NCBI GenBank assembly: GCA_902574695.1
Contig: CACGON010000001.1
Coordinates: 124,001 to 188,000, forward strand
Source of the DNA: an uncultured Pelagibacteraceae bacterium
GTDB lineage: Bacteria; Pseudomonadota; Alphaproteobacteria; Pelagibacterales; Pelagibacteraceae
DNA length: 64,000 bases
Direction of reading: 5' to 3'
Part shown: in pieces, positions 38,982-45,269 of the stretch
Layout of the letters: the number at the start of each line of letters is the position of its first letter
Numbering within the stretch: position 1 is the stretch's first letter
The notes under the pieces: generated by a model
What the model was told of the DNA's origin: nothing
Database searches by the model: none
What the model saw: only the letters and a program-made list of their open reading frames with translations
Made by a program: the position numbers and the translations under genes

Positions 38982-39057
38982 TGGTGCCCCTTGCCCGACT
39001 TGCACGGACGACTTTTTCCTTACCATGGAAATACTCTACTACCTGAGTTAAAGGGGC
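38982..39057 (-). tRNA. tRNA-Thr (GGT) with non-canonical elbow
   Basis: Reverse strand GCCCCTT TA ACTC AGGTAGTA GAGT A TTTCC ATGGTAA GGAAA AAGTC GTCCG TGCAAGT CGGGC AAGGGGC A CCA; all stems pair. Confidence 0.92.
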
Positions 39058-43166: not shown

Positions 43167-43239
43167 GGGTCTCTGGTGTAGCTGGTGCGCACGAACGCCT
43201 GAAAAGCGTTAGGACCTGGTTCGTTTCCAGGGGGACCCA
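43167..43239 (+). tRNA. tRNA-Phe (GAA), CCA not fully encoded (ACCT)
   Basis: GGGTCTC...GGGACCC acceptor, GTGT/GCAC D stem, AACGC-CTGAAAA-GCGTT anticodon arm, CCTGG-TTCGTTT-CCAGG T arm. Confidence 0.85.
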
Positions 43240-43356
43240 CCTTAATACATTAAAATTACTCTTAATTATCCTCTTGCAATAAATTTTAAAATCTAATACT
43301 TAGTCATCAGCTAATTTAGCTATAAGTTAACAATAAGAAGAAAGAGTAAAACAAGT

Positions 43357-43796: not shown

Positions 43797-43870
43797 GCCT
43801 TGGTGGTGAAATAGTATCACGTCGGTTTGTGGATCCGAAGTCGTAGGAGCGTAACCTACCCAAGGTACCA
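43797..43870 (+). tRNA. tRNA-His (GTG) with non-canonical elbow, ends 4 nt before hisS ATG
   Basis: GCCTTGG TG GTGA AATAGTA TCAC G TCGGT TTGTGGA TCCGA AGTC GTAGG AGCGTAA CCTAC CCAAGGT A CCA. Confidence 0.85.
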
Positions 43871-43874
43871 AAAC

Positions 43875-45269
43875 ATGAATAAAGAAAACAAACTCAATCC
43901 ATCCTTACCATCTGGATTTGAAGATCGTTGGGGTAAAAAGCTGGTTCTTAAAAAACAGCTTATAAGAATAATTGAAAAAAATTTTATAAAGTTTGGAGCC
44001 GAACCATTAGAGACTCCATCCTTCGAGTATACAGAGAACATTGGATCATTTTTAGCCAATGACGAAGATAACCCTATGTCTGATATTTTTACTTACGACG
44101 ATCGAACTAAAAGTATTAGTTTAAAGTATGATCTATCAAGTCCCTTGGCTAGATTTTATGCACAATTTAATCAGGAACTTCCGTCTATTTATAAAAGATA
44201 TGCAATTCAAAATGTCTTTAGAAATGAAAAACCTTCTAACGGCCGCTACAGAGAGTTTTTGCAAGGAGATTTTGACATTATAGGAAATGTTAATTTTGCA
44301 CAGGCAAATGCTGAACTATGTAACTTAATATCTACCACTCTCAAAGATATCGGTCTTAATAAAGATCAGTTTACAATTAATGTAAGTAATAGAAAAATAG
44401 TTCAAGGGTTAATTGATGATTTAAAGATATCAAAAGACAAACAATTAAAAGTAATTAGAGCAATCGATAAATTAGATAAGCCTGGATTTGGTTTAAAAGG
44501 AGTTGAGGATCTTCTTAAAAAAGAAAGAAAAGATCAAAGCGGTGCTATAACTAAAGGAGCTGATTTAAGCGATGATCAAGCAGAAAAAATATTAAATTTT
44601 TTAAAAATAAAAGATTTACAAGAATTAAGAGAAAACTTAAAAAATCCATTATCACAAGAGGGAATAAAAGAATTAGAGGATGTATTTGAGGTAATAAGTT
44701 ACGGATCTAATTCAAATCAAGTAAAAATAAATTTTACAATTGTACGTGGCCTTGCATACTATTCAGATTTTATTTTAGAAACAAATCTTAATTTTAAAGT
44801 TACAAACAGTAAAGGTAAACGTGTCGACCTAGGCAGTATTTGCTCAGGGGGAGGATATGCAAAATTAATATCAAGATTTAAAGGGGTAGATGTACCTGGA
44901 ACAGGTATTAGTTTTGGTATTGATAGATTATTATTTGCTTTAATTCAATTAGATCAAATTAAAATAGGGGATCAAAAACCTGTTTTAGTCTGTGTAATGG
45001 AGCAAAAATATCTGAAGAATTATTATGAAATAGTCGATTTATTGAGAGATAATAATATAAATGCCGAAGTATTTCTTAGTACAAAAAAAAATCTTAGCAA
45101 GCAACTTGATCTAGCAAATAAGCGCGAATTAGCGGTTGCAATCATTTGTGGAGAAAATGAGTTTAAAAATAACACAATTACGATCAAAAACCTTAGAGGA
45201 GAAAAAGGTAAAAATAATCAAACAATTCCAAAAGCTGATTTAATTAATGAAATCAAAAAATTTGTTTAA
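43875..45269 (+). CDS. hisS: histidyl-tRNA synthetase; start moved from 43827 to the ATG after tRNA-His
   Basis: YDLSSPLARFYAQF, QGDFDIIG, VRGLAYYSDFILE, PGTGISFGIDRL. Confidence 0.95.
   Translation: MNKENKLNPSLPSGFEDRWGKKLVLKKQLIRIIEKNFIKFGAEPLETPSFEYTENIGSFLANDEDNPMSDIFTYDDRTKSISLKYDLSSPLARFYAQFNQELPSIYKRYAIQNVFRNEKPSNGRYREFLQGDFDIIGNVNFAQANAELCNLISTTLKDIGLNKDQFTINVSNRKIVQGLIDDLKISKDKQLKVIRAIDKLDKPGFGLKGVEDLLKKERKDQSGAITKGADLSDDQAEKILNFLKIKDLQELRENLKNPLSQEGIKELEDVFEVISYGSNSNQVKINFTIVRGLAYYSDFILETNLNFKVTNSKGKRVDLGSICSGGGYAKLISRFKGVDVPGTGISFGIDRLLFALIQLDQIKIGDQKPVLVCVMEQKYLKNYYEIVDLLRDNNINAEVFLSTKKNLSKQLDLANKRELAVAIICGENEFKNNTITIKNLRGEKGKNNQTIPKADLINEIKKFV

Follow-up and report, generated by a model that had tools for sequence, protein, structure and literature searches.

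An A18-G55 Elbow in the tRNA-His of SAR11 Bacteria, with Counterparts in Other SAR11 and Viral tRNAs

The tRNA-His(GUG) gene of an uncultured Pelagibacteraceae bacterium (GenBank assembly GCA_902574695.1, contig CACGON010000001.1, positions 124,001 to 188,000; these 64,000 nucleotides are referred to as the window) harbors A18 and G55 in place of the G18 and U55 of the canonical tRNA elbow. The gene encodes a real, essential tRNA and is neither an error nor a pseudogene, and it is very probably the working tRNA-His of the cell, with an elbow held by alternative, covarying tertiary contacts. Other SAR11 tRNAs and many tRNAs of viruses show the same double replacement, and A18-G55 therefore looks, at the level of sequence, like a functioning alternative design rather than damage. 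We lean toward the broader view that bacterial and viral tRNAs follow a second elbow code, consistent in itself and requiring neither Psi55 nor m5U54, in which A18-G55 is combined with U54-A58, A54-U58 or G54-G58 (with A60 in the last two); SAR11 bacteria lacking truB would run essential tRNAs on this code, and some viruses would have moved the majority of their tRNAs over to it.

The canonical elbow consists of G18-Psi55, G19-C56 and the reverse Hoogsteen pair U54-A58 (PMC4810234, PMC7912444). Residue 18 lies between residues 57 and 58 and touches residue 55, the 54-58 pair closes the T loop, and G19-C56 forms the exposed face (PMC4810234, PMC7912444).

Results

The coordinates of the tRNA-His gene and of the neighboring features are collected in Table 1. 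The acceptor stem (GCCTTGG/CCAAGGT), D stem (GTGA/TCAC) and T stem (GTAGG/CCTAC) pair, the variable loop is AGTC, and the anticodon arm (TCGGT-TTGTGGA-TCCGA) includes a T31-T39 mismatch. At the 5' end there is a C at position -1, and hence no encoded G-1, with a G1-U72 pair and the discriminator A73; an alignment of 78 relatives places the gene in the alphaproteobacterial type of tRNA-His defined by the GUG anticodon, A73 and the missing G-1. The hisS gene starts 4 nucleotides past the encoded CCA, an order shared by relatives. A preliminary description of this DNA had read the two loops as AATAGTA and AGCGTAA, and had proposed the T31-T39 mismatch, the swap of 54-58 to A-T and the retention of G19-C56. 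Re-reading of the positions bore out each of these, and the mismatch proved to be conserved among the odd tRNA-His sequences. Two canonical contacts are thus replaced (A18/G55 for G18-U55, A54/T58 for U54-A58) and G19-C56 is present; the combination of a genomic truB with U55 that characterizes a TruB-dependent T loop is likewise missing, G55 being found instead.

Table 1. Features of the window discussed in the text
Feature	Position	Strand	Remarks
tRNA-Thr(GGU)	38982..39057	-	A18-G55; D loop AGGTAGTA, T loop TGCAAGT; U54-A58
tRNA-Phe(GAA)	43167..43241	+	just upstream of tRNA-His; G18/T55, T54..T58, C21
tRNA-His(GUG) gene, encoded CCA	43797..43870	+	bases read, Rfam tRNA model, alignment of relatives, RNAfold
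D loop of tRNA-His, AATAGTA (7 nt)	43810..43816	+	A14 A15 T16 A18 G19 T20 A21; A18 = 43813, G19 = 43814
Anticodon of tRNA-His, GTG	43829..43831	+	
T loop of tRNA-His, AGCGTAA	43848..43854	+	A54 G55 C56 G57 T58 A59 A60; C56 = 43850
hisS (histidyl-tRNA synthetase)	43875..45200	+	45200 is the end of the translated stretch, not a stop codon

The Rfam tRNA model (RF00005), the covariance-model check called for in the preliminary description, accepts the gene as a tRNA with 50.7 bits (E = 6.5e-8, gathering cut-off 29) over model positions 1-71; ARAGORN does not call a tRNA-His at its coordinates. The minimum-energy structure from RNAfold is the cloverleaf at -21 kcal/mol, and no alternative fold with a standard T loop was found. 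This energy is unexceptional (z -1.2), and the case for a real gene therefore rests on comparison.

A search of 101 same-genus genomes recovered the odd form of tRNA-His in 17, including the window's own. The SAR11 assignment made earlier is confirmed by named Pelagibacteraceae relatives. Sixteen of the 17 share the T loop AGCGTAA, the exception (L024) having GGCAGAA. Acceptor stems among the odd sequences differ by compensated changes (GCCTTGG/CCAAGGT, GCTTTGG/CCAAAGT, GCCTTGA/TCAAGGT and GCATTAG/CTAATGT), and the tRNA-His genes of named relatives include a compensated T-stem change, ATAGG/CCTAT. A second, canonical tRNA-His would have told against the preliminary description; neither the window's own genome (88% complete) nor G081, a single contig that is 99% complete and encodes 30 tRNAs, yielded one. 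The one tRNA-His of G081 has the odd elbow, and must therefore serve translation.

Changes at 18 and at 55 go hand in hand. The tRNA-His gene that precedes hisS was compared among 78 named SAR11 genomes: it is G18+T55 in 58 and A18+G55 in 20, and a mixed state occurs in none; 18 of the 20 A18+G55 genes have A54-T58, and T54-A58 is found in two lake genomes. The tRNA-Phe gene beside tRNA-His is A18+G55 (loops AGGAGTA/TGCGAAT) at the majority of loci and otherwise G18+T55, again with zero mixed states. A search pattern that permitted either G or T at 55 gave matches in 252 of 300 same-genus genomes, with G55 in every A18 match listed. Complete tRNA sets, read for G012, G081 and the window's genome, extend the class further: tRNA-Val(GAC) has A18-G55 in the loops AATAGTA/AGCGTAA, identical to those of the odd tRNA-His, and tRNA-Thr(GGU) occurs with A18-G55 in the loops AGGTAGTA/TGCAAGT. 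The elbow oddity first described for tRNA-His is thus present as stated and is not peculiar to that isotype. Similarly, the preliminary description was right that G18 and U55 are absent, and its conclusion that the contact is lost is misleading: 18 and 55 shift jointly from G-U to A-G, and 54-58 covaries as well, as U-A, A-U or G-G, so the elbow has been re-coded.

Some further features of these tRNAs were observed. The four SAR11 tRNAs with A18-G55 (Phe GAA, Val GAC, Thr GGU and His GUG) all carry G34. In G081, tRNA-Thr(GGU) has G18-T55 with G54-G58, in contrast to the A18-G55 of the window's tRNA-Thr. The window's tRNA-Phe ends in CCT without an encoded CCA, and its form (Table 1) is shared by its clade, L102 having a similar tRNA-Phe; the majority of the genus carries a tRNA-Phe of the A18-G55 kind at the same place. 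The window's tRNA-Phe looks like a replacement.

The SAR11 genus has deleted truB, the gene for the Psi55 synthase. TruB (PF01509) gave no match in G000, G012 or G081 and none in the 199 same-genus genomes searched, of which 66 reach at least 90% completeness; it is present in 378 of 389 alphaproteobacterial genomes, in three genomes from other genera of the family and in all 14 controls. The order infB-rbfA-truB-rpsO-pnp of the sister genera (L288-L290) is infB-rbfA-rpsO-pnp in SAR11, with truB cleanly gone between rbfA and rpsO in G000, G012 and G081 (L291-L293). Deletion and elbow do not coincide strictly. The truB-positive sister-genus genome G198 has a tRNA-His (L209) with A18-G55 (D loop AGTTAGTTA, T loop TGCAACT) alongside canonical elbows in tRNA-Phe, tRNA-Val(GAC) and tRNA-Thr(GGU), and among the tRNAs read from G183 and G230, which gave no TruB hit, all elbows are canonical. 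These genomes rule out truB loss as the full cause; it was probably permissive and not causal, as the switch does not require it and does not follow from it alone. A search for TrmFO gave, in both genera, only partial matches below the cut-off to ORFs of 622-640 amino acids, which were taken as the paralogue MnmG, and since the outcome is alike, loss of m5U54 does not set the genera apart.

Outside SAR11, a survey of 385 genomes of the class returned two true tRNA matches for the A18-G55 pattern, both from SAR11. That pattern was confined to GCTC D stems in which a single base separates 15 from 18, and it is blind to the G198 tRNA-His, so rarity outside SAR11 is only partly supported.

Viral tRNAs provided a much larger sample. 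In IMG/VR contigs, a scan for GCTC D stems combined with A18-G55 matched at least 120 stretches, and at least 112 of the 124 matches listed parse as tRNAs of many isotypes; further scans, one for A18 combined with a base other than G at 55 and one for G18 combined with G55, matched 31 and 25 stretches, respectively. All parsed tRNAs on the matched contigs listed (727 unique, from contigs chosen for holding one A18 tRNA and phylogenetically non-independent) are distributed over 18-55 as A-G 143, G-T 537, G-C 11, A-T 8 and G-G 4. Among the 646 that lie outside the search patterns there are 72 A-G, 2 A-other, 3 G-G and 548 G-other (U or C), an association with a Fisher p of about 4e-88, uncorrected for shared ancestry. 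Double changes thus far exceed single ones, with 72 against only 5 mixed cases in the viruses, as for SAR11 tRNA-His and tRNA-Phe.

The 54-58 pair of the A18-G55 viral tRNAs is U-A in 70, A-U in 33, G-G in 31 and another combination in 9, every tRNA of the A-U and G-G classes having A60; almost all canonical viral tRNAs have U54-A58. C56 is present in 142 of the 143. One viral tRNA-Val has the loop pair AATAGTA/AGCGTAA of the odd tRNA-His, and on one contig (L310, IMGVR_UViG_3300032397_000008) 13 of the 14 tRNAs parsed on the stretch are A18-G55, as if the entire tRNA complement of this virus had been switched over. Among the annotated isolate phage tRNAs examined, the three closest to the viral examples are canonical, and the viral evidence therefore comes from uncultivated contigs. 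Two other classes were noticed. Some viral tRNAs (e.g. L295, L363, L384 and L387) combine G18-A19 with the T loop TTTGATT or TTTGAAT, which suggests that A19-U56 may replace G19-C56 in them, and 11 (e.g. L345, L340 and L368) combine G18 with C55 (T loop TCCGA..), another class without U55.

Discussion

In the elbow that we propose, A18-G55 would stand in place of G18-Psi55 and A54-U58 in place of U54-A58. By analogy with the canonical geometry, A18 would insert between residues 57 and 58 and pair with G55, and the T loop would be closed by A54-U58 or G54-G58. The retained, exposed G19-C56 should preserve recognition by RNase P and the ribosome, the tRNA would be charged by the HisRS encoded next to it, and it would depend on neither Psi55 nor m5U54. 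Loss of truB from the genus probably removed one selective reason for keeping U55.

The explanations that deny the gene an ordinary role fare worst. A degenerate pseudo-tRNA or a sequencing error, with which the silence of ARAGORN would agree, can be practically dismissed: many independent genomes carry nearly identical copies with compensated stems, the gene has an encoded CCA and a conserved place before hisS, and in the complete G081 it is single-copy; multi-genome conservation and that single copy rule this explanation out. Altered elbows are known in tRNAs with non-ribosomal tasks, such as the staphylococcal cell-wall glycine tRNAs, and an elbow that weakens use by EF-Tu or the ribosome might suit a task of this kind here. 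We regard this as highly improbable, given that the odd tRNA-His is the sole one in G081 and that the same elbow is found on Phe, Val and Thr tRNAs. Loss of the contact without replacement is ruled out by the 18-55 covariation.

Covariation also bears on the possibility that U55 and G18 simply drifted neutrally in a few tRNAs after truB was lost, with no new pair formed. The absence of truB from all 199 genomes and its clean removal from between rbfA and rpsO would fit such a relaxation, as would the canonical Phe, Val and Thr elbows of the truB-positive sister genus. Drift, however, predicts mixed states (A18-U55, G18-G55) and other bases, of which SAR11 shows none and the viruses almost none, and both the A18-G55 tRNA-His of G198 and the canonical elbows of G230 and G183 run against it; we consider it unlikely. 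More weight, if still short of probable, is given to the odd tRNA-His being an allele spread by horizontal tRNA gene replacement, perhaps viral originally. The odd state must have changed four times or more on the HisRS tree. L140, which has the odd form, is paired there with a canonical genome as its sister (support 100/100), and the L140 tRNA is ~97% like the window's, compared with a HisRS only 72% identical; L024 is a similar case, lying beside a canonical genome with strong support on the HisRS tree. Viruses use identical loop pairs, as in the tRNA-Val described above, but the window's odd tRNA-His itself was not found in viral contigs or phage records, and a direct viral donor was accordingly rejected. 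Horizontal replacement of the tRNA-His gene among SAR11 is likely; it accounts for the spread of the elbow and not for its function, for which a re-coded set of contacts is the reading we prefer.

Compared with the canonical elbow, the tRNA-His retains the cloverleaf, a 7-nucleotide T loop, G53-C61, G19-C56, a purine at 57 and T8/A14/A21, and differs in having A-G and not G-Psi at 18-55, A-U and not U-A at 54-58, and A60; its D loop is one base shorter than those of its sister tRNAs. Suppressor tRNAs selected in E. coli by Zagryadskaya et al. in 2003 reportedly include altered 54-58 combinations, among them G54-G58 and G54-A58. G54-G58, a working substitute in those laboratory selections, occurs naturally in the tRNA-His of L024, the tRNA-Thr of G081 and viral tRNAs. 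Other functional tRNAs also depart from U54, such as the eukaryotic initiator, which has A54-A58 with the usual U55 (PMC7912444), in contrast to the A54-U58, G55 and A18 found here. Natural tRNAs without the full G18 G19 / T-Psi-C set include tRNA-Pyl and animal mitochondrial tRNAs (PMC7609411), in which, unlike the present case with its normal arms and retained G19-C56, the D-T contacts are lost or of another kind and the arms altered.

Alphaproteobacterial (RRCH-type) tRNA-His with A73 and no G-1, as encoded here, is already known, and is described for seven of eight SAR11 strains in the available text of PMC3937112, where an unusual elbow is not mentioned. Departures at position 54 are known as well. 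A literature search, with subscription papers on selected elbow variants outside its scope, found no paper containing A18-G55, and the priority of this elbow is uncertain.

The G18-Psi55 contact is treated as near-universal, and rapid translocation on the ribosome has been linked to the 18-55 pair (Pan et al. 2006, as cited in PMC4810234). Its recurrent natural double replacement on essential tRNAs indicates that the contact can be re-coded, and with A18-G55 tRNAs the part played by Psi55 becomes accessible to direct testing. Genes of this kind can escape annotation software that looks for TTCRA. SAR11 bacteria, among the most abundant in the sea, do without TruB, the gene for which is present in every control genome.
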